From the NCBI GenBank assembly GCA_003228115.1, contig QEVV01000011.1:1-64000 (forward strand): a stretch of 64,000 nucleotides of DNA, written 5' to 3'. A program made the translations under genes and the position numbers. The DNA comes from Chloroflexota bacterium (GTDB lineage Bacteria > Chloroflexota > Dehalococcoidia > Lucifugimonadales > SAR202-VII-2). This document shows, in pieces, positions 31,561 to 63,488 of this stretch (position 1 is the first letter of the stretch; each line of letters starts with the position of its first letter). Under the pieces are notes generated by a model that saw only the letters and a program-made list of their open reading frames with translations, was not told the DNA's origin and searched no databases.

Positions 31561-31936
31561 ATGTCTGGCACCTTGGCCATCGCGAACCGCTTCAACGACG
31601 CCATGAACAATCACGACGTGGACGCCTTGACGTCACAGATGGCTGAAATTGCACTCGAGAGCACCTCTCCCGCGGAACCGCTGCACGTCGCACATACAGC
31701 GTGAGGGAACTGTGGAAGGAGCGCTTCGCCTCGGGGCCACGTTCTCAGCCTATTACGTGATCGAAAGCGGCGACAGATGCGTAGTCCAGTGGCGCTACGA
31801 ATGGGTCGATGAGCGGGGAAGACCGGGCACATCCAAGGAGTCGACGTATTTAAGCGAGGGACGGGAAGGTGACGAAGAGGCTTTCCTACGTGAAAGGCTA
31901 CCGAAAAGGTGGTACTCCCGGCCGAATTTGAACCTG
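31561..31936 (+). pseudogene. SnoaL/NTF2-like protein, frameshifted
   Basis: ATG at 31561 opens a SnoaL-like start (LAIANRFNDAMNNHDVDALTSQM). The frame is then lost near 31700. Family-like sequence resumes in a second frame (CVVQWRYEWVDERGRPG) and in a third (RDGKVTKRLSYVKGYRK). At least two frameshifts are needed. The last reading ends at a TGA that lies inside the tRNA-Arg-like fragment, so the 3' end has been rebuilt by the island junction. Probably dead. Confidence 0.7.
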
Positions 31937-31956
31937 CGACACTCGGTTCCGAAGAC
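31910..31956 (-). repeat. tRNA-Arg 3'-part fragment, candidate distal attachment site
   Basis: Forty of 47 bases match the 3' part (CCA end, acceptor, T-arm, anticodon loop) of the intact tRNA-Arg at 63413-63488, in the same orientation. Similarity stops at the anticodon arm. The last 15 bases (CTCGGTTCCGAAGAC) are identical. A truncated same-strand tRNA 3' copy at distance is what tRNA-targeting integrases leave at the far end of an island. Confidence 0.78.
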
Positions 31957-32164
31957 AGGAATGGAACCCGCATCTACCCATGACTAGATAGGGGCATATA
32001 AGCCCTGCCCAACCCCTGAGGCGGGACAGCCACGGAGCGAGATGGAAGATCCGCACCGCCAACCTCAGGACGATAACTGGATGAATGGCCCCCCAGACTT
32101 TCGTGATCCCCTGCCGTGATCCAGTGACCCCGTGCCCAAGACCCTTTGACCATACCCTGCCAGG

Positions 32165-32386
32165 CTATCGTTGGCGCTCTAGTTCTCTCCTCTCACCCCT
32201 CCACTGCTCATAGGCCTCTGACCACTCAAGCGTGGCGTAGAGGCCCATAGCTATCTTCGTCACCCTTCCGCCCAATGCCATCCATCGCAGCCTATCCCTT
32301 ATGTTGGCGATCCCCAGGCCGGTTGCTGCCGCAATACCCTCGACCCCCGTAGGACCGTGCAACCGCAACGCCTCCAGGATCTTGCC
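32165..32386 (-). pseudogene. Winged-helix fragment of a mobile element
   Basis: An open stretch of about 73 residues, ILEALRLHGPTGVEGIAAATG followed by a recognition-helix-like IRDRLRWMALGGRV, is a helix-turn-helix module. It has a TAA directly upstream and no ATG; a TTG at 32368 is the only start. Such modules form the C-termini of phage or plasmid replication proteins. Its neighbour on the other strand is a RepA-like remnant, so both are read as decayed element genes. Confidence 0.5.
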
Positions 32387-33075
32387 TTACGTTGGCGCGT
32401 GTCCTTGTCATCGAGGCATCCAAGACCTCCATCCGGGATGTTCCTCGCAAAAGAGTGGCCAACCATGGAGCCCGGCTTCATCAAGCAGCTAGAGGGGTTC
32501 CTGGACGGCCCAAGGCTCATCGTTATAGATGTGCTCCAGCGGATACTCGTCCACAAGGGGCAGGGTAACGCGTACACGGAAGACTATGACGTCATGAAGC
32601 CACTGCACGAGCTAGCCCGAGCTAGGGGGATTACAGTCTTGGGCATCCACCATACACGCCAAGGGGGCCAAGTCGGATGACATCAAGGAGACTGTCAGCC
32701 ACTCCTTCGGCATCACTGGCGCAGCGGACAGTCTCCTTGTCCTAAAAAGGGGAGAGTCACGCTACGGCAAACTATATGTCACGGGTCGAGACATCGAAAA
32801 GGAGGAAGAGTTAGCCGTTTGTCATGTTAAAGATGACTACTGCATCATCGTGGGCGAGGCAGATCAGCAACCCAAAGGTGCCCAGCCGCGGGTAATCCTG
32901 GATCTCCTTGCACAAAGGAGGCGGATGACTCCCAGAGAGATCGCCGAAGCCCTCGAGAAAAACAGTTCAACCGGTCAAAACTCTTCTCGGTCGGATGCAG
33001 GAGTATGACTCGCTCGAAAATCAGGGAGGGCGGTACTCGTTGCCCTCGACTGAGGCCGACGAAGCTGTAGTCTGA
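32357..33075 (+). pseudogene. RepA/DnaB-like AAA ATPase of a mobile element, frameshifted
   Basis: The recognisable core is LFLDG-type RLIVIDVLQRIL (Walker B), ARARGITVLGIHHT, then after a frameshift near 32665 SDDIKETVSHSFGITGAADSLLVLKR and GKLYVTGRDIE. After another frameshift near 32968 comes VKTLLGRMQEYDSLENQGG, ending at TGA 33073-33075. This is the layout of the phage/plasmid RepA-like (AAA_25) ATPases with a C-terminal winged helix. The Walker A part is missing. It lies just inside the tRNA-Arg fragment, where replication genes of an integrated element would sit. Confidence 0.75.
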
Positions 33076-33303
33076 GTAAACCCTAGCCTCTGTCGACCCC
33101 ATAGCCGGGTCTATCTATCGCTACTGGAGGGAGAACCCGTCGCAGGCGAGCTGGTTTTAACTCAGGTGAATCTGCGACTTCGTCTGGGGATCGAATCTCG
33201 TTCGACGCCACGTCGGTCTACAGGGTTTACCCACGCCTACCCAAATCTACACGCTGATCAGAAGGACGTCGGTCACTTTCCTAAGCACCGTAACACCTCT
33301 CCA

Positions 33304-33383
33304 AAGCTGCTATGAGCCCGAGCGAACGCCCCAGCCCATCAACCCCAATGGTTTCCGATGTGTAGTAGCCCACCCTCATATCG
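33304..33383 (-). pseudogene. Inverted remnant of the 50-aa propeller repeat
   Basis: Read on the minus strand this gives VGYYTSETIGVDGLG and GLIAA, about half of one repeat unit of the lipoprotein at 58095-59618. No start and no surrounding frame remain. Confidence 0.7.
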
Positions 33384-33543
33384 CGGTGCCGGTTGCTTAT
33401 CCTAGTCTCCGTCTATTTTAGGGAAGGATTTTTAGACGTTCCTAGAGACTCGCGACCGACCACGCTGGGGGATGGCTGTGTCCAGACACATCTATGGTTC
33501 GGAGGAATCCCAGTAAGCTCGAAGCAACCAAAGAACCCTACAA

Positions 33544-33588
33544 TTCATTCGACCCCGGTTCTGCCAGGCAGAACCGGGGTCGAATGAA
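33544..33588. terminator. Perfect 22-bp inverted repeat downstream of the subtilase
   Basis: Two 22-base arms (TTCATTCGACCCCGG.. and complement) are separated by one base. It lies 55 bases after the minus-strand subtilase stop. No T-run is present. It could end transcription, form a cruciform or be a remnant of an element end. The rest of the 33.08-33.64 kb gap holds no other recognisable gene. Confidence 0.7.
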
Positions 33589-33642
33589 CGCCAAGCATCT
33601 AACGGCGCATACTGCGTCTTATCTCTCGCAGCAGGGAAAGGC

Positions 33643-36600
33643 TTACCCGAGAACGTCTCCCGGGCTTTCGCTGAGGCCCAGGTTCACCGCTATCCGGATC
33701 AAGTCCAAGATATCAATATACCCATCATTGTTCGCATCCCCGAAAAGGAGTTGAGCGGAAATAGTTCTGGTTGCTCCGCTGGCCAGATCAAAATCGACGC
33801 TCGCTGGCAAATGGTACGAATAGCTTGTGGAAGCGTTGTACGAACCGGGCGATAGCCACACGGAGAATCTTCCGTGTGGATCGGTCACAGCGGAAGCAGT
33901 TACGGGCCCCTCGAACTGCACGGCGATGCCGCGATGATCTGTTTGGCCCTGCAATGTGATGGTGCCAACCGCTCTTGACATTTGTATGCCCAAACTGACG
34001 GGCACAACAAGGTCGGGAGTACGGGGGTCGTTGCTCATGAAAACGATATCGGCACTGTAGGCGCCCCTTTCTAAGCCAGTGGCATCGATGGTCACAGTCA
34101 CGTCCAAGCTTTGTCCGGCCTCAATCTGCCCGGTAACCGGTTCTACACGCAACCAGCTTGGTCCAACGGCCCCTATTGCAAGGCCTGACACAGCCGGTAA
34201 CACACCGATTTCTCCTATAATTTCGCCGCTAACGGGGTTAACTATGACGTGACCCATAGTCTCACCAAAGCCCACTACCAACGATTCGCCGTCAAAGGCA
34301 AGGCCGTAGATCCGCCTGTTTGAATCCGCAAAGGCCACCCCTAAGACTTCGCCTGTACTGGTATCGATTTGAACCACTTCTTGGAATGCACTAACACCAA
34401 ACACTGTTCCCGCTGGTCCTGCGCCCAAGCCACCTATGAGGTTGCGATCCACGGTCACGGAACCCAAGACGGCCCCGCTATCTGGATCGATGGAAATAAT
34501 CTCGTCGTTGTCCGAGTCTTGGGCATACAGGACGCCATCTCCGAAGGCCAATCCATCAATCACGCCGTCTGAAGGAGCATCGAAGATTGCTACTACCACT
34601 CCGTCGTGGTCCATCTTAAATATTCGATTTGAACCCTGCGCATTGAGAAAAAAGATGAACTCACGATTGGCTGCTAGACCATCGGCCGCCATGCTTGCGC
34701 CTTCAGGGGTTGAGATTATCTCTACGCTCCCAGACCTAGGGTCCACGCGCCAGATGGTAGTTGGTCCTGTGATGGCGTACAGGTGGGCAGACAGCAAATC
34801 CACACCTGTCACGGGTGGCTGGACTTCCAAGGTTAAGGATAGCGAGCCAGAATCACCACCGTAGCCGCCCACCTGGAGGTAATAGTTTTGGCCGGCCACT
34901 GCCATGAATTTTATTTCAGACTGAAGGCCATCGGTATCGTCGTTGCAGGCCACAGATTCAAGGGAAGCAAGATCGTCCCCTCCTGTGTAGGCCGCCAAAA
35001 TAGTATCAAAGCCGCTTCCAAAGGTATTGGCAGTTAGGAGCCTGTCTTGCTGCAGGTTTATTTCGTACCACACCGTTTTACCTACGTTCACGCACAGCGG
35101 CTCGTTGTCTTCCATACCAGCCTCAGAGGTATCGACATCGTCCGAGAATGGAAGATCTTGTATGGCGGTGCCCGGGAACAGGTCATTGACAGCTAATGTT
35201 CGGGCCTTCCCAGCGAAAGAATAACCGGAGGTGCCCCGGGGAGTTGAAAGGGACGCAGGATTCGGCTGTGCACCGCCGTCGGCTTCAGGCGGCCGACTTG
35301 TTTCCCTGACTCCGATGTCAAAGGCCAGTGTGCCCTCTCCTGAATTGGAAACAGTCACGACGCGTGTAGCACTTTCGCCCTCGCCCAGCCCCACTTCGAG
35401 CGTCTCGGGCTCTACGCCGATATTGGGAGCCAGAAGGGTCATTTGGACAGCCACCGACACTCTCGGATCAACGGGGTCGTTGCTGTCGACAAAAACCTGA
35501 CCTTCGACCACCCGCCGATTTTCTCCCTGCTCCAGATCCACCCCATTGCCATTAAGCCTAATCTGGATTTCCACTGAGGAATCAGGGTCAACAAGACCCG
35601 ATGTTGGGTTCGTGGTCATCCATGTTGCGCTTTCATTTGTCGAGAGATCCACCGTGGACAGATCGAATCGGAGCACACCTGCCGCTTCGCCAGAAGAAGG
35701 GTTGCTTATCGTCATGGTAGCTGTCAGAGCCTGTCCCGCAGTTATTTCTTCTTCGAAATTCTCGGGCGTTACTTCAACATCAGGTGGTATTCCCTCACCT
35801 ACGGTAAGGGTTAGGGGAACCTGGATGGTTCCTTCATCTGGGTCGTCACTCTCTATGACAATCATCGCTTCGTGCGTACCCACTTCCAAGCTTCTGTCGC
35901 AGTTCAGCGTGACCGTCACCGCTTGACCCTCACTCGCCTGCAATGCTCCAGAAGACGGTTCGAAGCACAGCCAGTCAGGAGAGGACTGTATTTCTGCTTC
36001 TCCGAACGCCGCCTTGATTTGCTCGTCGATGAAGTCAAGGGAGGCACCCAGCGGTATGGGATATATGGGGATTGCGTTACTGTTCGAACGGGAGTCAACC
36101 GCAGATGACGCAGTCTGGCCTGTCTCATTTGCCCCTACGGAATAACTCAGCTCCCCAGCACCAACGTTATCAATCTGAAGGGTTGTGGTCTTAGTAACGA
36201 ATTGAAGAACATCTTCGTCGAACGAATCGGGTGACACTTCAATTTCCCCGAACTGTTCCAGTTTAAACAGATAGGGAACCGTCATCACCCCCATAGTCGA
36301 ACTGGCATCCATCACTCCCGCAGTCGAACTGGCGTCTTCTGTGAATTCGATGTGAATCCTTCCTTCGTACCAGCCTTCCACTTCATCACCTATAGGGCCG
36401 ACATCAAACGCGATGGTAGTCGTGCCGTCGGCATCCAGTGTGAGCGTAGTGGGTTCGACGCTAACAACCTCGGTCGTCGAGCCGTCTACAGTAGTAATGG
36501 CTGAAAGGTTCACGTTCATGACTTTGCCCGAGTGGTTTGAAAGGACAACAGTCGAACTGGCGCTTTCCCCTGTAGTTAGGAGCCCATAACTCAAGCTGGA

Positions 36601-38106
36601 TGGCACGGCTAGCAAGGGGGCGCTTACGCTCTCCGGCAAGGATATTCTGCCGGCTCCTTGATCCCACAGTTGGTTACCACTCAAGATTATTGAGTGATTC
36701 ATAAGGGCAGCCTTGACCATTGCTACGTTCCATTCTGGATGGGCCTGTATCACAAGGGCCGCTGCACCGGCCACGTGGGGCGCGGCCATAGAAGTCCCAC
36801 TGTAACTATCGTAGCCTCCACCGGGAACCGTAGATTTAATGTCGACGCCCGGAGCCGTCACATCTGGCTTTAACTTAAGGCCTGGGGTTGGGCCACGGCT
36901 AGAAAAGCCTGCTATTTGATCGGAATCATCGGAGGCGGCCACGCTTATGGCGGTCCGTGCCGTGCCAGGCGTGCCAATCGTAAACATGCTGGGGCCAGAG
37001 TTGCCCATGGCAATCGCAAATACCACCCCATTTTCTGAGGCGTAGTCCACGGCCAGGGTCATGGGATCCTCGTCGGAAGATGCGAATCCCCCCAGGCTCA
37101 TGTTGGCGACGTCGGCTTCATCACCTGTATTGGGTTGGCCGTCCGCACCCTCGGCGGCATACATGACGGCCTCGATAATCCCTGCAGATCCCCCCGAACC
37201 ATTTCGGTCTAGAACCTTCAAGTTCCAAAGGTGTGCCCCGGGGGCCACCCCAGTGAATTCGTCGTTCGTACCCGAAGTAATACCAGCAACGTGAGTGCCA
37301 TGGCTGTGAAGGTCGTTAGACGTCCCATCTCCGGAGAAGTCCCTCGCAAATAGCACCTTCGGGTCATCGGTGGCAGGGTCGTCGTCTAGGTCATCCAGGT
37401 CTGGGTGAGTCGCATCAACGCCAGTGTCGAGAATCGCTATTATGGTTCCAGAGCCATCGTACCCTGAGTTCCATACCTCAGGAGCCCCAATCAAGGGCAC
37501 GCTCACATCCAAGCTGGCATGAACCACTCGGTCCAGCCAAATCTTCTTTGTGGCGGCGGCACCGAGCAGAGCCTGAGCTATGCGGCCCACTTCCTCATAA
37601 GGAAGCGAAGCTGCCACAATGGCCAGCGCTTCGGATTGGTAGCCAATCTCCGCACCAAGCTCGTTTAATATCCTGTTCAATGCGGGTAGGTCGGCTGCGT
37701 CCTTGGCAACAATGATCACTGGCAACTCGCCCCGCTGCGAAAAGCCTTCATCAATCAAGTAGTCTATGTTGAAGAATAGGGTATCTACCTTATCCAAATC
37801 TAAGCCGCTTGGGATGACGTAAGTGCCAGCCTCTCCGCTGAAACCGTGGAAACTCTGGTTCAAAGAGCCACTAGCAGAATTGACTCTATAGCTCCTTTCG
37901 CCATCGGCTGCAACAGATACATTCACAATGTCGCCCGTAATCAGCGTTAGCTCATAAGCCCGAGCGCCCGAGTCAAGGCCCGCTGACCCACCATCTGCTG
38001 GATGCCCTTCATAGGCGCCAGGGCTGCTTAATGTGAAGCCTGAGGACAGCAGCACGCTAAGTGTGAGCAGTATCGATAAGACTGGGACGCCTCTGAATCT
38101 AAGCAT
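33643..38106 (-). CDS. Secreted multidomain subtilase (S8) with propeller and dockerin-like end
   Basis: A 1487-residue protein with a signal peptide (about 1-25), a propeptide region to about 200, and a peptidase S8 domain with the catalytic triad Asp227 (AILDTGVD), His269 (HGTHVAG) and Ser439 (SGTSMAAP). Then follow several beta-sandwich repeats of the ASPM/BACON type (LEVGLGEGESATRVVTVSN and similar), a PPC-like domain, a beta-propeller stretch and a carboxypeptidase-regulatory-like fold. The C-terminus is a dockerin-like calcium motif, GDANNDGYIDILDLIRIAVN. AGGAG precedes the ATG. It probably degrades extracellular protein. Confidence 0.92.
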   Translation of the reverse strand: MLRFRGVPVLSILLTLSVLLSSGFTLSSPGAYEGHPADGGSAGLDSGARAYELTLITGDIVNVSVAADGERSYRVNSASGSLNQSFHGFSGEAGTYVIPSGLDLDKVDTLFFNIDYLIDEGFSQRGELPVIIVAKDAADLPALNRILNELGAEIGYQSEALAIVAASLPYEEVGRIAQALLGAAATKKIWLDRVVHASLDVSVPLIGAPEVWNSGYDGSGTIIAILDTGVDATHPDLDDLDDDPATDDPKVLFARDFSGDGTSNDLHSHGTHVAGITSGTNDEFTGVAPGAHLWNLKVLDRNGSGGSAGIIEAVMYAAEGADGQPNTGDEADVANMSLGGFASSDEDPMTLAVDYASENGVVFAIAMGNSGPSMFTIGTPGTARTAISVAASDDSDQIAGFSSRGPTPGLKLKPDVTAPGVDIKSTVPGGGYDSYSGTSMAAPHVAGAAALVIQAHPEWNVAMVKAALMNHSIILSGNQLWDQGAGRISLPESVSAPLLAVPSSLSYGLLTTGESASSTVVLSNHSGKVMNVNLSAITTVDGSTTEVVSVEPTTLTLDADGTTTIAFDVGPIGDEVEGWYEGRIHIEFTEDASSTAGVMDASSTMGVMTVPYLFKLEQFGEIEVSPDSFDEDVLQFVTKTTTLQIDNVGAGELSYSVGANETGQTASSAVDSRSNSNAIPIYPIPLGASLDFIDEQIKAAFGEAEIQSSPDWLCFEPSSGALQASEGQAVTVTLNCDRSLEVGTHEAMIVIESDDPDEGTIQVPLTLTVGEGIPPDVEVTPENFEEEITAGQALTATMTISNPSSGEAAGVLRFDLSTVDLSTNESATWMTTNPTSGLVDPDSSVEIQIRLNGNGVDLEQGENRRVVEGQVFVDSNDPVDPRVSVAVQMTLLAPNIGVEPETLEVGLGEGESATRVVTVSNSGEGTLAFDIGVRETSRPPEADGGAQPNPASLSTPRGTSGYSFAGKARTLAVNDLFPGTAIQDLPFSDDVDTSEAGMEDNEPLCVNVGKTVWYEINLQQDRLLTANTFGSGFDTILAAYTGGDDLASLESVACNDDTDGLQSEIKFMAVAGQNYYLQVGGYGGDSGSLSLTLEVQPPVTGVDLLSAHLYAITGPTTIWRVDPRSGSVEIISTPEGASMAADGLAANREFIFFLNAQGSNRIFKMDHDGVVVAIFDAPSDGVIDGLAFGDGVLYAQDSDNDEIISIDPDSGAVLGSVTVDRNLIGGLGAGPAGTVFGVSAFQEVVQIDTSTGEVLGVAFADSNRRIYGLAFDGESLVVGFGETMGHVIVNPVSGEIIGEIGVLPAVSGLAIGAVGPSWLRVEPVTGQIEAGQSLDVTVTIDATGLERGAYSADIVFMSNDPRTPDLVVPVSLGIQMSRAVGTITLQGQTDHRGIAVQFEGPVTASAVTDPHGRFSVWLSPGSYNASTSYSYHLPASVDFDLASGATRTISAQLLFGDANNDGYIDILDLIRIAVNLGLSESPGDVLG

Positions 38107-39728: not shown

Positions 39729-40209
39729 ATGAAGTTCCTTTTGCCAGTTTGCCTTCTGCTCGCAGCATTGCTGCTCGTCGTTTCCTGTTCAGGCTCCGTA
39801 GGAGAGGATGGACCACGTGGTCAACAGGGAGTGGCGGGAGAGCAAGGTGACCAGGGACACCAAGGCCCCGCTGGTGCTACTGGCGCCGAGGGTGCCCAGG
39901 GGGAGCAGGGTAAGACCGGAGCCACCGGTGCACAGGGCTCGATGGGGTTGCGGCGGTTCCCGGGAACCACGGGTTCTGCGGGAGCGGATGGAACAGATGG
40001 AGCCACGGGCTCTGCGGTGTATCGTGCGATACCCGCTGACAACACAACAACCACCCTGGACAGCGAAGGGAGTGTGGGCCGGGACATATCCGATAACCAT
40101 TGGGGCTGATGGACTTGGCCTCATCAGCTACTGGGACCTTACCAACGCTGACCTAAAGGTAGCCCACTGCGAAAACGCCTTCTGCTCACCGCATTTTAGG
40201 CGGAGATAG
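39729..40209 (+). pseudogene. Truncated, frameshifted copy of the collagen-propeller lipoprotein
   Basis: The first 30 residues ([20 protein letters not shown] and on) and the last 20 ([17 protein letters not shown]) are the same as in the intact gene at 58095. In between, the collagen-like stalk is shorter and only one propeller unit remains. A one-base insertion near 40085 puts the C-terminal part in another frame. About 60 bases upstream of the ATG are also conserved between the two loci. This is a deletion derivative or a seed copy of the larger gene. It ends just before a tRNA-like 3' end. Confidence 0.85.
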
Positions 40210-40235: not shown

Positions 40236-40281
40236 CCAATCTGCAACGAGGGAGTTCGTGGTTCGATTCCATTCCCCCCCA
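40236..40281 (+). repeat. tRNA 3'-half fragment A (Cys-like, GCA loop), degenerate
   Basis: An anticodon-loop-like CTGCAAC, a T-arm (GTGG TTCGATT CCAT) and a seven-C acceptor strand plus A73 are present. No matching 5' acceptor strand exists upstream. The stem pairing is poor, so the amino-acid assignment is tentative. It is followed by a hairpin and a weak match to the motif found after fragments B and C. Confidence 0.5.
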
Positions 40282-40297: not shown

Positions 40298-40343
40298 AAC
40301 AACGAAGCCCCCGGTTCCGTCTCCGATGGCTTCGTTGTTTTTA
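40298..40343 (+). terminator. Rho-independent terminator
   Basis: AACAACGAAGCC pairs with GGCTTCGTTGTT around an 18-base loop and is followed by TTTTA. It ends transcription from the truncated lipoprotein / fragment A side. Confidence 0.85.
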
Positions 40344-40500
40344 GGCCTACTTATAGACGACACTGATTAGCTCCATCGCCAGGCGATGGACAAAGTGAAG
40401 AGACATCAAGGGTCGGCTTGACATCCCGTTTCAAATAGGCGTTCCATAGTTTTTGGGACCATATCTCAATAGTCAAATTTCCCCATAGGGCAACAGAGCA

Positions 40501-41718
40501 TTGAATTCAGGCGAAACCCACGCGGGATCATACCGCTGGCTATTAATGGCATTGTGGATGTGTACGCACTCCACGGGATGGGTTGTCGTGCTGAGCATTG
40601 GAATCCTGTTACCCTCTATAGCCGCAGAGTTTCATCTATCTTATGGTATGCAAGGTTTATTAGCGTCCGGGCCTCTTTGGGCCAATACAATTCTCTACCT
40701 ACCGCTTAGTATATGGCTTGTTCGATACTCCCCTAGGCTACTCACAACTATTACCATTGTCCTAGGGACGCTGTTCGTGTTACTTCAGGCATCCAGCTCC
40801 CTTTTTATTGTCCTACTGATCTCTCGATTCGCCCTTGGCATCACCTTAGCTGCTAGAGAACCAGCTAGGATGCTTCTCATGCAACAGTGGTTTCACTCCC
40901 GAGAGTTCTTGTGGGTGAACTCCATTACCGTATGTGTCCTTTCCTTCGCATTTTTCGGCGCTACTCTGGCGACACCATATGTCTTAACTTTCTTCGGCGA
41001 TGATTGGAGATCAACACTCTATTTCTTTGGGGGACTGACGGGCGGACTGGCCATCCTATGGGTCATATTAGGCCGGGAGAGAAAAACCCACCAATATCTA
41101 TCATATATTGCCCAGTCGAGCACAGTCAATTGGCAAAACGTTCTTCGGCATAAAGAACTCTGGCTGGCAGCATTGGGACTCTTGGGTACAAATATATCAG
41201 CCTCTACCTTTATTGCCTTTTATCCAACGTTCATGTTGGAGAGGTACGATTTTCCATTGAAATATAGCGCTTTCATTCTTTCGGCCAATTGGCTGGTTTG
41301 TGGCCTAGCTGGTTTGATTGTTGCCAGATTAGCCACCAATTGGACCAGCCGTTCAAGAATCCTGTACACATGTGGTTTAATCCTTCCTTCCAGTTACTTG
41401 CTCCTCATATTTACGGATTCCTTGCCATTACTCTTTGTGGCCTTAATCGCCAATGGGATCGGATGGTGCTTTTTCCCAATATTGTTAACTATAACCCTTC
41501 ATCTGCCTGGTATTCATGTCAAGGAAGTACCCGTCGCACACGCTTTCTTGTTCGCATCCGTCTCTTTTGGGTTGGCAATGGGACCATTACTGGCAGGCTT
41601 CGCATTGGACACTTTGGGCAATCCTCTAGTGGTATTAGGCATCATGAGCCTAGCTTCATTGAGTGTCATTGGTTCAGGGATTTCAGCGAGAATATTAACG
41701 GAAACTGCCATTTCCTAG
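40501..41718 (+). CDS. MFS transporter in an AT-richer cargo module
   Basis: A 405-residue major facilitator with 12 hydrophobic segments (for example GWVVVLSIGILLPSIAAEF, SRFALGITLAAREPARMLL). The TTG start at 40501 is uncertain; an internal ATG lies at 40549. Codon use and base composition are visibly AT-richer than the flanking operons at 1-31 kb, suggesting transfer. It is the only gene between tRNA fragments A and B, so it may be the cargo of one module. The substrate is unknown. Confidence 0.85.
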   Translation: MNSGETHAGSYRWLLMALWMCTHSTGWVVVLSIGILLPSIAAEFHLSYGMQGLLASGPLWANTILYLPLSIWLVRYSPRLLTTITIVLGTLFVLLQASSSLFIVLLISRFALGITLAAREPARMLLMQQWFHSREFLWVNSITVCVLSFAFFGATLATPYVLTFFGDDWRSTLYFFGGLTGGLAILWVILGRERKTHQYLSYIAQSSTVNWQNVLRHKELWLAALGLLGTNISASTFIAFYPTFMLERYDFPLKYSAFILSANWLVCGLAGLIVARLATNWTSRSRILYTCGLILPSSYLLLIFTDSLPLLFVALIANGIGWCFFPILLTITLHLPGIHVKEVPVAHAFLFASVSFGLAMGPLLAGFALDTLGNPLVVLGIMSLASLSVIGSGISARILTETAIS

Positions 41719-42035
41719 ATTCAGCCACTCTAACCGTGACACATCCTCAACAACAATTTCCACAGCAACGCCGAAGGGCACCACTGCACACGAACGGGTG
41801 GTTAAGGTCTCCTTCCAGTCATCTGAAAATACGGGCGAGCAAAGCGTCTCCCTCTGCCCCCTCCTTTCCAAGCAGGGCTTCAGGGGCCCAAGTTTTCTAG
41901 ACCTCCTAGCTGTCCAAACACCTCAAACGCCAGATCTTCTTTTTATCCTTCACAATTTTTTAGGGCTGGGCACTAACACAGTCAATGTAGAGCATAACGG
42001 CTTGGGGTCCCATGGGGAGGGGGGGCTAGAGGGAC

Positions 42036-42085
42036 TCGGCTTTGCAACCAGGGGGTCAGAGGTTCGAGTCCCCTCAGCCTCATCA
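42036..42085 (+). repeat. tRNA-Ala(UGC)-like 3'-half fragment B
   Basis: The anticodon loop TTTGCAA (UGC), the variable region GGGTC, the T-arm GG TTCGAGT CCCCT and an acceptor strand CAGCCTC-A followed by TCA are in order, as in bacterial tRNA-Ala. The 5' half (acceptor strand GAGGCTG and D-arm) is absent. This looks like an attachment-site remnant rather than a working tRNA. Confidence 0.75.
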
Positions 42086-42165
42086 CGTTTACCCGGGACT
42101 TTGTCCCCTGAGACAAGATCGGGGAACTTAGTCTTCCACCCTAGTCCCATAAATAGTCTTGCAAT
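42086..42165 (+). repeat. Conserved post-tRNA block, copy B
   Basis: Directly after fragment B the order is a CTTTGTCCCC.. hairpin-like segment, ACAAGATCGGGG, and then GTCCCATAAATAGTCTTGCA (42144-42163). The same order follows fragment C at 44237-44350. It is non-coding and precedes the stop of licD on the other strand. Confidence 0.65.
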
Positions 42166-42169
42166 TTGC

Positions 42170-43105: not shown

Positions 43106-43128
43106 TTCTTATTCCCCATCCCACTCTG

Positions 43129-43857
43129 TTAATTATGGTGACCACTACCTGTCTGTAGACGCTCCAGGTCTTCTGGATTGTCTATATCGTGCCAAAATTC
43201 TCCGGATATGTCACAGCTTTTGAGAAGTCCGCCCTGATCTATAAAATAGGCCAACATTTCACCGAGTTCATATCGTCCCGAGTCATCGCAATTAACCCAT
43301 TGATTGATTACTTCATAAATTTCGGATGTGAACCTGAAAACCCCGGAGTCGACACCGTTCCATATTTTTATGTGCTTTCCAATTGAGCAAATTGTTTCTT
43401 TATCCTTCACTAGCACCCGAGTGGCCTCCTGTGCATGATACGAAGTTATATTAAAGTCAACACCTAACACATTGCCCTGGTAATCTCCGTCGAACTTCAT
43501 CACATTGGTTATAAGGCTAGATGAGGCCATATGATCACCCATAGCAAGTATGAAATCTTGACCGTCTGCGAAAGATTGAGCCATTTGAACGGAAAGAGCG
43601 TTTCCAAATCTATAGTTCTTATTAAATATAGTCTCAATTTTGAGTCCATACTGAGATCCATCGCCTACCCAGTCGTTAATTCGATCGGACATAAACCCTG
43701 TAACTAACCCAACATTAACAATGCCTGCCTGAGAGAATGCCCAGAGCGTATGATCGATAATGGGGAAATCTCCTACCGTTAGAAGAAGCTTATGTTCTTT
43801 CTCGGTATACGACCCAAATCGCGAACCAACACCCGCTGATAAAATCACTCCCTTCAC
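43129..43857 (-). CDS. NTP transferase (LicC / sugar- or polyol-phosphate nucleotidyltransferase type)
   Basis: A 242-residue Rossmann-like nucleotidyltransferase. It starts with KGVILSAGVGSRFG, has the conserved Lys of KLLLTVGDFPIIDH and the metal-binding Asp in LAMGDHM. Relatives make CDP-choline (LicC), CDP-inositol or NDP-sugars. Its pairing with LicD suggests it makes the CDP-activated donor for that transferase. It is the upstream gene of the pair, and its promoter side faces tRNA fragment C. Confidence 0.85.
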   Translation of the reverse strand: MKGVILSAGVGSRFGSYTEKEHKLLLTVGDFPIIDHTLWAFSQAGIVNVGLVTGFMSDRINDWVGDGSQYGLKIETIFNKNYRFGNALSVQMAQSFADGQDFILAMGDHMASSSLITNVMKFDGDYQGNVLGVDFNITSYHAQEATRVLVKDKETICSIGKHIKIWNGVDSGVFRFTSEIYEVINQWVNCDDSGRYELGEMLAYFIDQGGLLKSCDISGEFWHDIDNPEDLERLQTGSGHHN

Positions 43858-52903: not shown

Positions 52904-52945
52904 CGACCTATTATAGCGGGCAAGCTGGCCCACGCCTTTGCTCAC

Positions 52946-53693
52946 TACCTAGACCGGCTTGCTTTCGAGTGTGTCCTTAGGGACGTGAAACAAGACGAGT
53001 GATGCTCTTCCATCCTCTAATCCCTGTTACATAATGGATGGCCGACGAGGTCCATTTTACCCGCCCAGTGTAGACCCTTGAGGAAGCCTCGCGGCCTGTG
53101 GCGCTGCTCGATTCCGGCGCTGGGCCGGATGACCTGCCGGTGTCCACAACTGGATGGCCCGGTACTGTGAGCATGCTCACAAGAAGGCCAATGCCGCCTT
53201 TGCTGAGGCGGTGACCCACCACAAGGCTTCCCTCCAGCCCTGAGTGCTGGCTTACTAGGTGGCTATGGTGAAAATCAGTTGACCACCCTCCCACTCGCCA
53301 GTTTTACTCCAACTGCTGACTTCCCCGCAGGTGAAATCCCCAGGCAGGCGATCGCCAAGGGGCTTCTTGCGACCATGTTGGAGACGGGGGAGCGTCGATC
53401 CATTCTGTGAACACTGGGCCGTTTCATCACTACATATTGCGTCACCACTTGACGCGTCTGCCGTTCAAGCCGGACGGCCTAGTGAACGTCCGAAGAACGG
53501 CGGGCCCAGCATTATGGGGATGTCCGTTGCTTTCCCTATTTTAGGAGGAGGCAGCCCATCTTCCTTGCCTATGAGGGATAGGTGGGAAATGGGGGGGGGG
53601 GTACACGGCGGTAGCGAGGTTCCTGCCGTAGAGGTTCTAGGTTCGATAGCCCAGCAATGGCCAGACAATCTGGCCATCTTCTGAGTCATCCGG
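52946..53693. other. Intergenic region with one possible decayed coding tail
   Basis: No complete gene. On the plus strand 53137-53247 reads HNWMARYCEHAHKKANAAF and on to a stop, which looks protein-like, but a TGA closes the frame just upstream. It could be a remnant of a lost gene. A 38-nt dispersed repeat (53601-53638) and a G-run near 53591 are also here. Confidence 0.45.
53601..53638. repeat. 38-nt dispersed repeat, copy 1
   Basis: Matches 59657-59694 at roughly 30 of 38 bases around GCGAGGTTCC. On the minus strand both copies read as LY.RNLAT.V, so it may be a coding remnant. Confidence 0.55.
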
Positions 53694-54683
53694 CTAACTA
53701 AACTGGTGGTCAAGGGTGTTTGGGGCGAACAATTCCTCAATTGCTGGCTCTCGAGCCGCAAGGTTCTGCTCGTAAAGATACTGCGGCAGTGCCTCCAGAG
53801 AAACTCTGTTGCGGTTGATACCGTATGGCCAAAAGTCATGCCCCATGATTCGGCGAGTTTCCTCCATCTCAGCAACAACCCAAGGAAGCGTAAGCTTCAG
53901 AGCGTCTGTTTCGATAAGTTGGCTGTATGCCCAATCTTTCGCTTTCACAAAGGCTTCGTACAGGCTCGTGGCCGCCCACGGGTAAGCTTCGTATATATCT
54001 CGCCTAAGTACGACGGTGTGCATGATGGGAAAGATCCCGGTTTTCGCGAAGTAATTCTTCTCGGCTTGTCTGTAATCCTCAAAGAGCCTTCGCACCGGAG
54101 ACTCGCTCCGATCCAAGGCTTTGGGTGCGTTGGGACTGATGATTGCATCAAGTTCTCCGGTCTCCAACATGGGTCCCATGTCCCGTTCGAGTGGCATTCG
54201 GTGAAGTGTCACATTCTTGAGTTCGAAGTCGATCCGGGAGGGACGTTGCAAGCCATCCTGCGTACCACTGAACCATTCAATGGTCTCCGGTTTGACACCG
54301 TACTCGTGAAGTAACATGCCCCTGGCGAATACGGCCGCGGTCATCGAGTATTCGGGCACTCCGATTTTCTTTCCGATGAGGTCTTCAGGGGTCTCAATTC
54401 CAGCTTTCTTGTTGACATAAATACAGGAGTGGCGAAAGAGCCGAGAGGGGAAAACAGGAATTGCGATGAATGATTCATCGCCTCGAGCGCGCAGCATCGT
54501 ATAGTTAGCAAAGGACAGTTCCGATACTTCGAATTCCTTATGGCGTAGCATTCGGAAGAAAGTTTCGCTGGGTCTCGAGATTATCGGCGTGATCTCTATA
54601 CCTTCCGGCTGAATAGTGCCGTCCATTAGCGGACGGACGCGGTCGTAGTCCCAAAATGCAGTCGTCAGACGTACTCTAGCCAC
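53694..54683 (-). CDS. 4,5-dihydroxyphthalate decarboxylase-like / NMT1-fold periplasmic-binding protein
   Basis: A 329-residue protein of the family usually annotated as 4,5-dihydroxyphthalate decarboxylase, which has a periplasmic-binding-protein fold of the NMT1/THI5 type. Typical parts are GIEITPIISRPSETFFRML, FEVSELSFANY, IYVNKKAGIETPEDLIGKKIGVPEYSMTAAVFARG. It has no signal peptide. The start is GTG at 54683 with GGGAG six bases upstream. No ABC transporter genes adjoin it, which favours an intracellular enzyme or sensor role. The substrate is uncertain. Confidence 0.85.
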   Translation of the reverse strand: MARVRLTTAFWDYDRVRPLMDGTIQPEGIEITPIISRPSETFFRMLRHKEFEVSELSFANYTMLRARGDESFIAIPVFPSRLFRHSCIYVNKKAGIETPEDLIGKKIGVPEYSMTAAVFARGMLLHEYGVKPETIEWFSGTQDGLQRPSRIDFELKNVTLHRMPLERDMGPMLETGELDAIISPNAPKALDRSESPVRRLFEDYRQAEKNYFAKTGIFPIMHTVVLRRDIYEAYPWAATSLYEAFVKAKDWAYSQLIETDALKLTLPWVVAEMEETRRIMGHDFWPYGINRNRVSLEALPQYLYEQNLAAREPAIEELFAPNTLDHQFS

Positions 54684-56509: not shown

Positions 56510-56652
56510 TGTGCTTGATGGACTTGGTGCTACTCCTCTCCTTCTCTTTGCTTGCCCCGGCCTGCAACCAGGCGGCAACGGCCACGCCAGGCCCAGGCAC
56601 GGCCAGAAGTCCACGGGCAAGATTTTCTTGTCCAAAGACTGTCCACCTTCGC

Positions 56653-56658
56653 TATAAT
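56653..56658 (+). promoter_or_regulatory. -10 box of a probably leaderless MFS transcript
   Basis: A perfect TATAAT ends 7 bases before ATG 56666, so the expected transcription start falls on or next to the A of the start codon. A possible -35 (TTGTCC, 56628-56633) is 19 bases upstream. Confidence 0.6.
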
Positions 56659-56665
56659 CCGCGGT

Positions 56666-58000
56666 ATGTTGGAGTCAGATGGTCATGAAATGAACAACTC
56701 TTCAAGCTCTTCAACGGACTCCGGTATCTTCTACGGTTGGTGGGTCGTCGCCACCTCCTGTGCCGTCCTTACCGTTTGGTCATGGACAGGGTTCTACGCT
56801 TTCGGCAACATGTTTATTCCCCTGGAGGAGCAATTCGGCTGGACCCGGGGGCAAATAGCAGTTGGCGGGTCTCTATTCATGATCTGCGGAGGTGTGGGCG
56901 GGGTCTTCATGGGCCGGTTGGTATCGCAGTACGGGATCAAGCGGCTAGTGGTGGTTGGCGGGCTGATCCTGTCCACATCGATGTTCCTTTTGAGTACCAC
57001 AAACTCGTTATGGCAGTTCTACATCTTCTATGGCATGGCTGGGATTGGAGGAGCTTTCAGTGGCGTAGTGCCCTTTGCCACGGTGGTCTCTAACTGGTTC
57101 CGTGTTAAACGGGGCCGGGCGATGGGACTCACTATGATGGGCTTGGCGGTGGGTGCCCTCATTTTCTCCCCAATCACGGCGTTGATTATCGGTGAGTACG
57201 GTTGGAGGGTCGCGTTTGTCGTGATGGGCATTGGGGTTCTCTGCGTCAACTTCCCGGCCACCTTGATTCTCAAGACTAAGCCCCAGGACATGGGGCTTCA
57301 CCCTGACGGGGTCATCGCTGACCCGCAGCCAGTACAGCCATCGGTGCCTGTCCCGGGATCCAGTGAACCGGCGGGGTTGACCAAGGAACGCAGCGCCTTC
57401 TCCATAGCGATGGGTAGCCCCGCTTTCTGGTTTCTCGCTGGGGGATTTTTCTTCATGGGGGTCGGTACTCTTGGCATCCTCAACCATCTCGTACCCTATG
57501 TCCGGGACATGGGTATTTCCGTTAAGACCGCAGGTTTGGTACTTGGGATTTTTGGAGGGGCCGGAGCGATTGGAAAGATAGGATTTGGGTTGCTGTCGGA
57601 GAAGTTCTCCGTGCGGTACGCCGTTATGTTGTCTTTCAGCCTTCAGGTGACGGGGGCCTTCATTCTCCTTCAGGCGACCAGCCTCCCAGTGGTCTGGCTT
57701 TTCGTGGCCGTGTCGGGGCCAGCCGGAGGGGGCGTTATGACCTTGCTGCCGCTATCGGTGGGCGCGCTCTTTCCTCTGCGCGTCTTCGGCACGGTTTTTG
57801 GAATGGTGAATCTCGCATTATCGGCGGGGGCGTCCCTCATTGGGCCACCGTTGGCAGGGTTTCTCTATGACCACTATGGCTCCTACGACCTTCCTTTCAC
57901 GGTATTCATCGGCATGTACCTCTGTGCCATTGTCCTAATCTACTTTGCCTGGGGTATCAGTCCTCGCCTGCGAGGCTCCAAAGTAGCCTTCGAGGGTTGA
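56666..58000 (+). CDS. MFS transporter (monocarboxylate/OFA-like)
   Basis: About 444 residues from ATG 56666 (the frame is open from 56552 but upstream codons look non-coding and cover the promoter). Twelve hydrophobic segments; the start FYGWWVVATSCAVLTVWSWTGFY and IPLEEQFGWTRGQIAVG are typical of the OFA / monocarboxylate-porter branch. GLVLGIFGGAGAIGKIGFG marks the second half. Probably carries organic acids. It ends about 95 bases before the collagen-propeller gene. Confidence 0.88.
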   Translation: MLESDGHEMNNSSSSSTDSGIFYGWWVVATSCAVLTVWSWTGFYAFGNMFIPLEEQFGWTRGQIAVGGSLFMICGGVGGVFMGRLVSQYGIKRLVVVGGLILSTSMFLLSTTNSLWQFYIFYGMAGIGGAFSGVVPFATVVSNWFRVKRGRAMGLTMMGLAVGALIFSPITALIIGEYGWRVAFVVMGIGVLCVNFPATLILKTKPQDMGLHPDGVIADPQPVQPSVPVPGSSEPAGLTKERSAFSIAMGSPAFWFLAGGFFFMGVGTLGILNHLVPYVRDMGISVKTAGLVLGIFGGAGAIGKIGFGLLSEKFSVRYAVMLSFSLQVTGAFILLQATSLPVVWLFVAVSGPAGGGVMTLLPLSVGALFPLRVFGTVFGMVNLALSAGASLIGPPLAGFLYDHYGSYDLPFTVFIGMYLCAIVLIYFAWGISPRLRGSKVAFEG

Positions 58001-58094: not shown

Positions 58095-59618
58095 ATGAAG
58101 TTCCTTTTGCCAGTTTGCCTTCTGCTCGCAGCATTGCTGCTCGTCGTTTCCTGTTCAGGCTCCGTAGGAGAGGATGGACCACGTGGTCAACAGGGAGCGG
58201 CAGGAGAGCAAGGGGCTCAGGGAGACCGAGGCCCCGCTGGTGCTACTGGTTCGCAGGGAGAACAGAGTGAGCAGGGTAAGACCGGAGGCACGGGGGCAAC
58301 CGGAGCAACGGGTGCCGTAGGCCCTGGTGGGTCTACTGGACCTGCTGGGAGTCAGGGAGCACAGGGTTCTCAGGGCGAGACCGGGGCTAGCGGTGAGTCT
58401 GGGGCTACCGGTGCAACAGGAAATGCGGGTGCGCAGGGAGCACAGGGGGAGACCGGGGCTACCGGTGAGGCCGGGGCTACGGGGAGTGCGGGACCGGATG
58501 GAGCAGCAGGGCCATCGGGGTCTGCTGCGTATCGTGCGATACCCGCTCTCAACACGATAAGCACCCTGGACAGCGATGGGAATGTGGGCTGGTACACGTC
58601 GGTGACCATTGGGGCTGATGGGCTGGGCCTCATCAGCTACCAAGACGCCACCAACGGTGACCTGAAGGTAGCCCACTGCTCGGATGCTGCCTGCACGGTT
58701 GCCACAAAGACTATTCTCGACAGTGCAGGGGATACGGGCTGGTACACCTCGGTAACCATTGGGGCTGATGGGCTGGGCCTCATCAGCTACCAAGACGCCA
58801 CCAACGGTGACCTGAAGGTAGCCCACTGCTCGGATGCTGCCTGCACGGCGGCCACAACAACCACCCTGGACAGCGATGGGTGGGTGAATTCGAACACCTC
58901 GATAACCATTGGGGCTGATGGGCTGGGCCTCATCAGCTACTACGACAACATCAACGCTGACCTGAAGGTAGCCCACTGCTCCAATGCTGCCTGCACAACG
59001 GCTACAACGGCCACCCTGGACACCGATGGGGAGGTAGGCGGGCACACATCGATAACCATTGGGGCTGATGGGCTGGGCCTCATCAGTTACTCAGACAACA
59101 CTAACCGTGACCTCAAGGTAGCCCACTGTTCGAATATTGAATGCACGGAAGCGACAACAGCCACCCTGGACAGCCAAGGGGATGTGGGCCAGTACACCTC
59201 CATTACCATTGGGGCTGATGGGCTGGGCCTCATCAGCTACTTCCACTGGAGTAACGACGAACTGAAGGTAGCGCACTGCTCCAATGCTGCCTGTACGGCT
59301 GCCACAAAGACTACCCTGGGCGGCGAAAGGGGCGTGGGCTTTTACACATCGGTGACCATTGGGGCTGATGGGCTGGGCCTCATCAGCTACGTCGACTACT
59401 CCAACCATGAACTGAAGGTAGCCCACTGCTCCAATGTTGAATGCACAGAGGCCACAACGGCCACCTTGGACAGCGCAGGGTATGTGGGCGTTTACACATC
59501 GATAACCACTGGGGCAGATGGGCTGGGCCTCATCAGCTACCGAGACGTCACCAACGCTGACCTAAAGGTAGCCCACTGCGAAAACGCCTTCTGCTCCCCC
59601 CATTTCAGGAGGAGATAG
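58095..59618 (+). CDS. Lipoprotein with collagen-like stalk and seven-repeat propeller head
   Basis: A 507-residue surface protein. The signal peptide ends in lipobox VVSC (about Cys20). Residues about 25-150 are an uninterrupted series of Gly-X-Y triplets rich in GAT, GAQ and GET, as in bacterial collagen-like stalks. Then come seven tandem 50-residue units (150-nt period), each with [19 protein letters not shown] and a second Cys four residues later. Seven equal beta-rich units with a cysteine pair per unit suggest a seven-bladed propeller with one disulfide per blade. It ends with FRRR. Likely a cell-surface adhesin or binding protein. Confidence 0.85.
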
Positions 59619-59949: not shown

Positions 59950-60062
59950 GCCACCTCTGTACAGGTCACATTCGAGCAGTGCGCACCTTCAAGTCACTGT
60001 TGCTAGAGTCTAAGTAGCTGATCAGGCCTAGCCCATCAGCCCCAATGGTTACTGATGTATCC
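59950..60062 (-). pseudogene. Inverted remnant of one propeller unit
   Basis: On the minus strand it reads [22 protein letters not shown] and DLKV; then after a one-base shift AHCSNVTCTEVA and a stop. It is a single broken copy of the unit in the adjacent gene, in opposite orientation, with no start. The remainder of the 59.62-60.24 kb gap has no gene. Confidence 0.75.
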
Positions 60063-60701: not shown

Positions 60702-61205
60702 CCTACGTCCCATACGATAACTACCCTGGACCGCGAAGGGGATGTGGGCTAGTACACATCGATGACCATTGGGAATGATGGGCTGGGCCTCATCAGCTAC
60801 TACGACTACACCAACCAGGACCTGAAGGTAGCTCACTGCGGGAATGTTGCCTGCACGAAAGACCCGTTCACGCCCACCGTTCAGATCGAATTAGGTTTGC
60901 TTCCCCCGTCGGTCCTCTTGGACGACTACCTGAGGCCGAGCACAGACACCCTCGCCTATGCACACCGCGACGTATGGGAATCCGAAGCCACCGTGACGAA
61001 GTTCTTCATTGCCACAGAGACAGGAAGCTACGATATCGGCTATTCGCTAGCGGGAGTCGCAGTTGCTGAGTTGGATATCGTGGTCACTCGGCACGTACCC
61101 GTCGTGCCCCTACCAGGCGCAGGTGATACCAACGGTGACAACAACGTAGACGTCCTCGACCTGGTCACCGTGGGGAGCAACTTGGGTAATTACTACGGGC
61201 CCTAA
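60702..61205 (+). pseudogene. Propeller unit plus dockerin-like tail with in-frame TAG
   Basis: The frame starts ITTLDREGDVG, then a TAG at 60750-60752 where the intact gene has a Trp codon, and continues [20 protein letters not shown].. with DLKVAHCGNVAC. After that it is unlike the other copies: a Thr/Val-rich domain and a C-terminal dockerin-like calcium motif, GDTNGDNNVDVLDLVTVGSN. No start codon or signal peptide precedes it. A shorter gene could start at ATG 60762, but without a secretion signal this is unlikely. Confidence 0.7.
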
Positions 61206-61916: not shown

Positions 61917-62065
61917 CGTTACAAGGGTTGATCGCACTATGTAGTTTTAGCTTTGCAAGCAGGTGGGTGGAGTGAGGCTCTTACAAGCTGAAAGATAGAA
62001 CCTAACGTCCAAGAGTCCCATGAAGGATTAGTTCAACGGGGGGCGGGCATGGGAATATATCACAC

Positions 62066-62095
62066 ACCTACCTCACAACAGTCTTATAAGCCCTA
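62066..62095 (+). repeat. 30-nt copy of the DUF805 gene 3' end
   Basis: Twenty-eight of 30 bases match 39471-39500, the last codons of the DUF805 gene. Here it lies in non-coding sequence, so it marks a lost second DUF805 module or recombination junction. Confidence 0.7.
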
Positions 62096-62190
62096 TTAAC
62101 AGAAGGTTCTAGCCCCTACCCCACGAAGGCGACTGTTGGTCTTCCGTCGGTGAGAGGATGCTGCTAAGCGAGTGGTGCACTTGAGTCATT

Positions 62191-62778
62191 ATGGGAGATA
62201 TGCGACATAACGCCATAGCCATACTTCTACTTGCCACGGCCCTAATGCTGTCGGGCTGCGTTAAGGAGGTTGAAGTACCTGTAGAGAAGGTGGTCACGGT
62301 GGTGGTTACGGCTACTCCCACTGCTACATCTGTCGAGCCAGCACCTCCGCCTACGCCTGGTATAGAAGCCAAAGTAGAGGCCACGAACAAGGGAAGTGAA
62401 TTGGACTCTGCGATGAAAGAGGAATTGCTTGAGCTGGCAAATAATCGGGACGCATGGTTCTTGGCCAGCGATATCACCACCGAGGCGGTGGAAGGGTTGT
62501 ATGGTAGCTGGTCTGTAATATGCCGAAATGAGACTTCCTTGGCTGACTACAAGGAGGCGGTGTATGAGTTTGTAAGGCCTTTGGTTCTGGACGGTCTGGA
62601 GATGGCATTAAAGGATGTCCAAGAAGCCAGCCGATATTACAACACGGACGTAGAAAGTTGGAGTCCTCCATGGGCTTACGTCGAACAAACATGGAAGCTT
62701 GGCGTCAAGATAGTCTTAGGACCTGCACGTCAGTTGTATGTATTAGAATCAGGTGCGTGGCGCTATCACGACTGTTAA
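62191..62778 (+). CDS. Lipoprotein, unknown function
   Basis: A 195-residue protein. The signal peptide ends in lipobox LSGC. The mature part starts with a Val/Glu-rich stretch (EVEVPVEKVVTVVVTATPTAT), a spacer common in Chloroflexota lipoproteins. The rest is helical with WFLASDITTEAVEGLYGSW. No family is recognised. The start at 62191 is not supported by a clear ribosome binding site, and ATG at 62200 is possible. It lies near the right end of the island. Confidence 0.68.
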   Translation: MGDMRHNAIAILLLATALMLSGCVKEVEVPVEKVVTVVVTATPTATSVEPAPPPTPGIEAKVEATNKGSELDSAMKEELLELANNRDAWFLASDITTEAVEGLYGSWSVICRNETSLADYKEAVYEFVRPLVLDGLEMALKDVQEASRYYNTDVESWSPPWAYVEQTWKLGVKIVLGPARQLYVLESGAWRYHDC

Positions 62779-63120
62779 GTCAGCCACAACATAATTTTGC
62801 CCTGACGATTCACCGTTCTTCCTAGGGCGTAGGCACTAGGACTCAGCCGCTTTCAACCTCCGTCAATTCCCCTCACCAGGCAAATTGGTGCCAGAATTGG
62901 AGCCAATGAAATGTGTGGGCTATGGCTTGCTTTCTGGGTCCCACTAGCCAACAATCCCATGTTCCTATTCAAATTCCCTCTCCAAATTCATGCCCCCGAC
63001 TAGTGAGAACCAGTACCGCTCTTTAGCGTCTAGAACTGCCATCGTCTGCCCCGGCGTCCATGACTTTACCTTTGCTGCCAGCCGCTTACCGTCAACGCTT
63101 TTCTGGGCTGCCAACTCCTC

Positions 63121-63267
63121 AAGGTGGTCCAGGAGCGCCTGGGGCATAGCAGCATCGCTATCACCCTGGACACCTACAGCCATGTGGTTCCAGGCCTCCA
63201 GGAGGCCGCAGCCAGGGCCATCGACGAGGCTCTCACTAGGAAGGAGGTCCCGGTGACAAGCCAGTAG
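63121..63267 (+). pseudogene. Tyrosine recombinase (integrase) C-terminal fragment
   Basis: The frame reads KVVQERLGHSSIAITLDTYS then HV and about 25 more residues to TAG. This is the family's hallmark C-terminus with the conserved GH and the nucleophilic Tyr in DTYSHV. Upstream of about 63118 the sequence is no longer integrase-like, so only the last 48 codons remain. It points toward the tRNA-Arg 146 bases away, the normal position for an island integrase. Confidence 0.85.
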
Positions 63268-63296
63268 GAGACCCCCCCTACGGCCGTTGCAGCAAA

Positions 63297-63323
63297 AAGC
63301 CCACGATCGATGATCGTGGGCTT
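63297..63323 (-). terminator. Terminator downstream of tRNA-Arg
   Basis: A 12-bp stem (AAGCCCACGATC and complement) with a 3-base loop. On the minus strand it ends in GGGCTTTTTGC, so it terminates transcription coming from the tRNA. Confidence 0.85.
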
Positions 63324-63412
63324 CGGCTTTGGTGGCTCGGCAGGAGATCGCACCTGTGATCTCGTTCGTGATCCGTCCGGCCCTCAGCAGCTACGATTCT
63401 ATGTGGATTGAG

Positions 63413-63488
63413 TGGTACGCCCGGAGGGATTTGAACCCCCGACCCTCGGTTCCGAAGACCGATGCTCTATCCCCTGAGCTACGGGCGC
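63413..63488 (-). tRNA. tRNA-Arg (anticodon UCG), CCA encoded
   Basis: All four arms fold. The acceptor stem is GCGCCCG with CGGGCGT (one G-U pair), the D-arm has TAGCTCAGGGGATAGAGCA, the anticodon loop is CTTCGGA, giving UCG, and the T-arm is GGGGG TTCAAAT CCCTC. CCA is encoded at 63413-63415. The gene reads leftward, so its 3' end faces the integrase fragment and the island. Confidence 0.95.

Follow-up and report, generated by a model that had tools for sequence, protein, structure and literature searches.

The window analysed here comprises bases 1-64000 of contig C11 (77,539 bases), which belongs to a Chloroflexota assembly of 2.78 Mb in 18 contigs with 92% completeness. The subject of this report is the right half of the window, from 31910 to 63488, the probable remains of a mobile element. 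This interval is limited on the right by an intact transfer RNA (tRNA) gene, tRNA-Arg(UCG), and on the left by a displaced 3' half of the same gene. Remnants of an integrase gene and of a replication gene lie inside the right and left ends, respectively, and both ends carry a common pair of short direct repeats.

The two ends of the interval

The intact tRNA-Arg(UCG) gene, the target site, lies on the minus strand at 63413-63488 and is recognized by ARAGORN (anticodon TCG) and by RF00005 at 67.6 bits; tRNA aside, the Rfam scan returned chance-level matches only. The displaced copy occupies 31910-31956 on the same strand and corresponds to tRNA positions 30-76, with 40 of 47 nucleotides (nt) identical (E 8.3e-9 in a search of the organism's own genome), among them 15 consecutive nt from the anticodon arm. 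When the copy is scored against 15 tRNA genes of the genome, Arg(TCG) gives 33 and none of the other 14 exceeds 17. The 29 nt immediately 5' of the copy agree with the tRNA 5' half at 7 of 29 positions, and 992 of 2000 shuffled sequences score as well. Because of this dissimilarity, the copy is regarded as a 3' half and not as a worn whole gene. A lower-case ARAGORN call ('tRNA-???') at 31945-32019 overlaps the Arg half and was rejected, being no gene by Rfam.

The locus therefore combines a whole tRNA gene with a fragment of the same gene that reaches its 3' end and is placed downstream in the same orientation (both minus), 31.6 kb away, where Islander-type searches use a range of 2-200 kb. 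Since tRNA-Arg is on the minus strand, an inserted element is expected to extend leftward, with the displaced 3' half at its far left end, as observed. Judged from the sequence, this geometry of half-tRNA duplication is that left by tyrosine-integrase insertion, and the intact gene at 63413-63488 would accordingly be composed of a host-derived 5' half and a 3' half supplied by the element.

A C-terminal remnant of a tyrosine integrase at 63088-63264 (plus strand) points at the tRNA 3' end. It matches PHROG integrase (E 8.7e-9) and PF00589 positions 147-168, the latter at E 0.006, below the Pfam cut-off, and has relatives in 33 IMG/VR loci. This remnant is all that was found of an integrase gene, itself one of the Islander criteria, and a Pfam scan of the overlapping open reading frame (ORF) at 62990-63253 gave no match. 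At the opposite end, a replication-gene remnant of the AAA_25 (RepA/DnaB-like) family at 32450-32677 (plus strand) covers AAA_25 positions 143-194 with the Walker-A half missing; its match is over the cut-off (E 6.6e-8) and is accompanied by one to PHROG DnaB-like helicase (E 1.8e-9). The gene continues in a second frame at 32655-32981 (plus strand) with a helix-turn-helix-like end (weak matches, E 0.02); this continuation has one relative in IMG/VR at 34% and three among plasmid records. The replication piece matches 388 phage records, all at less than 60% identity, and no relative at E <= 1e-7 was found in 249 other genomes of the order. An AAA_25 gene on contig C3, considered as its intact parent, gave no significant match. 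A fragment at 32168-32386 (minus strand) has a winged-helix look, judged by eye. The initial annotation had placed an intact minus-strand tRNA-Arg, a same-strand 47-nt partial copy, an integrase C-terminus adjoining the former and a replication-module remnant beside the latter, and all of these were borne out.

Inside each end lies a direct-repeat pair on the plus strand, GTGATC-N7-GTGATC at 32103-32121 on the left and GTGATC-N6-GTGATC at 63356-63373 on the right. The GTGATC pair with a gap of 5-8 has two matches in 519,596 host bases, both at the element ends, while 20 shuffles gave a mean of 0.25 and a maximum of 1; the host DNA used for motif counts is a non-random portion of the genome, taken around integrases, tRNAs and contig ends. 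As the motif had been chosen after inspection, a blind test was made with 250-bp windows sharing any tandem-repeated 6-mer: a tandem 6-mer was common to random window pairs in 15 of 20,000 cases and to the left end and random windows in 40 of 20,000. The pairs may serve as integrase arm sites.

Composition, cargo and inner tRNA halves

Segmentation of the contig by G+C content, performed independently of the tRNA halves, placed cuts at 32,740, 40,320, 44,360 and 65,940. The first lies 0.8 kb inside the left end and the last 2.5 kb beyond the tRNA, so that the composition shift anticipated at both borders holds on the left and is blurred on the right. Windows of 4 kb show low G+C at 32-44 kb and 58-64 kb. 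Frames of at least 150 codons account for a fraction of 0.937 in 1-31526, 0.754 in 31957-63412 and 0.824 in the right flank (63489-77539), and closed ORFs of at least 90 amino acids (aa), with contig-end frames left out, cover 0.923, 0.804 and 0.69 of the same stretches. The described contrast between a decayed interval and a compact 1-31.5 kb is thus upheld for the denser left flank; the right flank differs less. A possible SnoaL-like remnant lies just outside the left end (31561-31701; DUF4440, weak at E 0.063).

Nearly all repeat fragments of the window had also been described as lying in the interval, and all copies of the repeat-lipoprotein gene on the contig (E <= 1e-3) are indeed inside it. 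The main copy, at 58095-59618 (plus strand), encodes a collagen-like lipoprotein (PF01391, E 1.8e-16) with 150-nt tandem repeats identified by TRF, and partial copies are found at 33330-33401, 39729-40209, 59954-60058 and 60714-60861. Lipoprotein-repeat copies also occur at or near the ends of contigs C2, C3, C8 and C13, together with tRNA halves on C2 and C13, and these repeats may break the assembly at contig ends.

Search for tRNA halves, with 47 distinct tRNA genes as queries and an nhmmer profile of 3' halves, covered 518,339 bases of the genome and returned ten at nhmmer E <= 0.082, with a best value of 0.2 in one shuffled set. Four of the ten are in the window, namely the Arg half and three plus-strand halves overlooked by the initial annotation, and none is in 1-31.5 kb or 44.3-63.4 kb. 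The first inner half (40242-40281; nhmmer E 0.0013) is tRNA-like and ambiguous in type, its best matches among the organism's own tRNAs being Val/Ala with a score of 16. The second (42040-42081) is of the tRNA-Ala(UGC) type (95% over 40 nt, E 1.2e-12; nhmmer E 5.1e-6), and the third (44191-44236) is a tRNA-Val half with 88.8% identity over 45 nt to Val(CAC) (E 5.3e-11; nhmmer E 5.1e-7). Intervals of about 2 kb separate them, and behind each is a stretch that looks hairpin-like by eye.

The first and third halves bound a low-G+C block at 40321-44360 (0.469, against 0.586 on its left), with the Ala half in between; the change point at 40,320 is 39 bases from the first half, and that at 44,360 is 124 bases from the third. 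The halves delimit two units of low G+C. One contains a single gene, for a major facilitator superfamily (MFS) transporter (40501-41718, plus strand; PF07690, E 1.4e-29). The other contains two on the minus strand, for a LicD family protein (42170-43105; PF04991, E 2.8e-12) and a nucleotidyl transferase (43129-43857; PF00483, E 3.2e-16). The interval holds a single Arg(UCG) half, and the three inner halves derive from other tRNAs and lie on the opposite strand, which is not the pattern of an additive array of a single tRNA.

The remaining cargo includes a secreted protein of the subtilase (S8) family of 1487 aa (33643-38106, minus strand; PF00082, E 2.2e-57) and a second MFS transporter (56552-58000, plus strand; PF07690, E 5.8e-52). 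Between them, a mostly intact stretch at 44396-54683, with host-like G+C from about 46 kb, encodes a short-chain dehydrogenase/reductase (SDR), an NAD epimerase, a 1406-aa protein, a cytochrome/beta-propeller protein and a periplasmic binding protein. A DUF805 protein is also among the intact cargo genes.

Comparable elements and the surrounding genome

Relatives of the replication gene in named genomes were found at 20 loci, with 40-48% identity except for one at 39%. Going by the record titles, we take 19 of these loci to be alphaproteobacterial and one to belong to Bdellovibrionales. Examination of their DNA revealed an integrase match at 10 of the 20 and a tRNA gene or tRNA 3' half at 13. 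Two Chelativorans loci, L241 and L242, share with the interval a tRNA-end repeat, an AAA_25 replication gene (plus), an integrase (plus) and a tRNA (minus) in the same order and orientation, over about 10.3 kb. Their repeats of the tRNA 3' end are identical at 16/16 nt in L241 and 15/15 nt in L242 (E 3e-4 and 0.001 within the locus). Unlike the interval, they carry phage genes (a portal gene in L241 and a terminase gene in L242) and have one third of its length.

Comparison with relatives covered 58 other genomes from the same order, all outside the family of this bacterium, and 34 neighbourhoods of intact tRNA-Arg(UCG) across the order, some of them cut by contig ends. The DNA of the racemase gene in the left flank gave, apart from its own match, a single 28-bp match (E 9e-4) in the 58 nearest genomes, and a protein search of genome contigs confirmed no relative. 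The SDR of the right flank has relatives of about 70% identity in another family among 249 other genomes of the order, with no tRNA or other flank genes beside them. At the 34 loci, only scattered low-identity matches to the interval were seen, so that relatives sharing the interval in the same order, one of the two circumstances named at the outset as refuting an island, were not encountered. Nor was the other, a 47-nt match belonging to an unrelated tRNA remnant where there is no island. In 23 of these loci a tRNA-His gene lies at most 3.4 kb upstream of tRNA-Arg(UCG). Here tRNA-His is on another contig (C1:171465-171540), and the 14 kb to the right of tRNA-Arg contain no other tRNA; it follows that the locus was rearranged.

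Similar combinations of tRNA halves with an integrase or replication gene, interrupted by contig ends, are present elsewhere in the genome at tRNA-Arg(UCU) and tRNA-Ser(UGA). Contig C5 has at its end a tRNA-Arg(UCU) gene and an integrase ORF that runs to the contig end; Arg(UCU) halves are found at the start of C4. Tandem repeats of the TTGATGCCAA type follow the intact tRNA-Arg(TCT) at the C5 end and also precede the Arg(TCT) half at the C4 start, and the two contig ends may belong to one element. On C4 (L186, C4:1-20000), a 1.16-kb unit at 290-1493 with a single gene, methyltransferase-like by eye, lies between two Arg(UCU) 3' halves (100% and 96%). A tRNA-Ser(UGA) gene on C3 (L148, C3:1-20000, 1-6388) occurs with an AAA_25 gene and lipoprotein-repeat copies, and a Ser(UGA) 3' half on C13 (L188, 4565-4626) adjoins lipoprotein repeats; the two may be parts of one element that contig ends have separated. 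Another four tyrosine integrase genes are located within 0.3 kb of a tRNA, near tRNA-Trp (C1:233058-233646), tRNA-Arg CCG (C4:177708-178336), tRNA-Arg TCT (C5:190281-190967) and tRNA-Thr CGT (C12:30386-31151). On C1, a partial tRNA-Trp copy was looked for downstream of the Trp integrase, and none was found in the 67 kb examined. Two other families of the order also contain tRNA 3' halves, of Arg UCG (L101, G034:C7, 6919-6963) and Thr (L082, G025:C63, 453-497), these being the 2 clear matches in 67 loci with 883,490 bases.

Origin and meaning of the interval

Taken together, these features indicate, with a probability of about 0.8, that the 31.6-kb stretch represents the remains of a mobile element that inserted in tRNA-Arg(UCG), later became composite and is now immobile. 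The duplicated half with its geometry, the common repeat pair, the two gene remnants and the same layout in other elements are directly observed, and they uphold one part of the proposal of a single 31.5-kb island, namely an integrative element with its ends at the tRNA and the 47-nt half. The one-island part did not hold, as the block at 40.3-44.4 kb is bounded by halves of other tRNAs and by G+C change points, and 46-54 kb is host-like. Further insertions appear to have left their trace in the inner halves of other tRNAs.

In the proposed course of events, a circular mobile element of the phage, phage-satellite or integrative-plasmid type would have integrated into tRNA-Arg(UCG) by means of a tyrosine integrase, with a crossover probably in the anticodon-arm region. 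An attachment site (attP) carrying the tRNA 3' half would have kept the gene at 63413-63488 whole and displaced the host's own 3' half to 31910-31956. The integrase and replication genes would have come to rest at opposite ends, with the repeat pairs inside each end as possible arm sites, and the element may have replicated as a circle. Subsequent loss of the integrase would have ended excision. The middle could then have been replaced or enlarged, the low-G+C block with its other tRNA halves entering by at least one further event, while copies of the repeat lipoprotein multiplied and decayed, leaving an immobile composite island of cargo genes.

Several observations weigh against this account. 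The integrase remnant is sub-threshold in Pfam, and the GTGATC pair was spotted by eye first and tested afterwards. The tRNA border is unmarked by composition, the right G+C cut being outside the element, and G+C in 4-kb windows is host-like at 46-54 kb. Structural phage genes, packaging genes and conjugation genes were not found among the interval ORFs scanned, and the replication remnant alone does not decide whether the element was a prophage or phage satellite at all. An empty site was sought in the 58 relatives, none of the same family, and none was found; nor was synteny seen in the nearest family. The tRNA-Arg locus is rearranged in ways that the account does not cover, and the end repeats of the Chelativorans elements are shorter (15-16 nt) and situated at the tRNA 3' end, not in the anticodon arm.

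Some of these points would fit two unrelated events, in which a small tRNA-Arg element with integrase, replication gene and a few others was present and most of the 31 kb is ordinary chromosomal DNA that rearrangement brought between its ends. This explanation, in keeping with the host-like G+C at 46-54 kb, the broken His-Arg tandem and model elements of only about 10.3 kb, is nevertheless rather unlikely: both ends keep their repeats and remnants in the expected order, and all lipoprotein copies of the contig and all four tRNA halves of the window lie inside.

Another possibility concerns the inner halves, whose one- or two-gene spacers could make them cassettes of one recombinase system using several tRNAs. 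The adjoining G+C change points agree with this, as does the likeness of the sequences that follow the Ala and Val halves on the 3' side (score 24, shuffled maximum 20, reached by 0 of 200 shuffles), which share a motif on the plus strand at 42144-42163 and 44329-44348; the motif, derived from these two sites, has two matches in the host DNA. The flank of the first half, a half of ambiguous tRNA type, shares nothing there, its scores of 8 and 13.5 being reached by 199 of 200 and 36 of 200 shuffles, and no integrase with the Ala/Val motif was found in the host stretches examined, which makes a single system improbable. More doubtful again is a general form of this idea, in which integrases of the lineage would act at several tRNAs and assemble arrays of cassettes with one or two genes, each cassette having a tRNA 3' half at its end and no need for its own integrase, the halves resembling integron-cassette sites. 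It is hinted at by three different halves that lie around a low-G+C block at a spacing of about 2 kb, by the alike sequence behind two of them and by the 1.16-kb unit on C4. It is highly improbable that another element left the 47-nt match behind as a stray piece of tRNA-Arg and that the interval is only decayed chromosome. Such halves are indeed common in the DNA searched (ten at nhmmer E <= 0.082 in 518 kb), and a tRNA-Arg(UCG) half also occurs in genome G034 of the same order. This one, however, is from the right tRNA, is a 3' half, lies on the right side and strand and is accompanied by a repeat pair that matches the one next to the intact tRNA.

The preferred reading, a dead tRNA-Arg element made composite, is ordinary in kind, and the feature that deserves further attention is the set of inner halves from other tRNAs. 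Several known systems are comparable. A tRNA gene with a displaced fragment is the genomic-island signature used by Islander (PMC4383910), whose islands likewise have ends marked by a whole tRNA and a downstream 3' fragment in the same orientation, with an anticodon-type site; an integrase gene is required there, whereas a C-terminal remnant alone is present here. Dehalococcoides ssrA-specific islands (PMC3146451) are similarly tandem and separated by 3'-end repeats of the RNA gene, with 15 of 31 lacking an integration module, but they use a tmRNA target and a serine recombinase in place of a tRNA and a tyrosine integrase. Methylophilaceae have additive islands in which the tRNA end is repeated (PMC10872708), and in Alteromonas (PMC5217437) a duplicated tRNA 3' end is a sign of one integration. 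These flexible islands resemble the interval in their cassette-like additions beside a tRNA and their tRNA-end repeats; one tRNA is repeated there, whereas here at least two other tRNAs are represented among the inner halves. Tycheposons, as described in PMC10872708, also combine a tyrosine recombinase, tRNA ends and metabolic cargo, a likeness only, given the C-terminal remnant present here.

The interval may illustrate the layered flexible genome of an uncultivated bacterium, in which an old tRNA-borne element lost its integrase, stayed in place and became a landing place for further DNA. In the original Prochlorococcus work, the hallmark of tycheposons is reportedly a deep-branching tyrosine recombinase of a family of its own. 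The inner tRNA halves would be readable marks of the later events, and elsewhere in this genome such halves are near contig ends. Halves of this type may therefore be of use for locating islands of this kind, and for placing them in order, when a metagenome assembly is fragmented.

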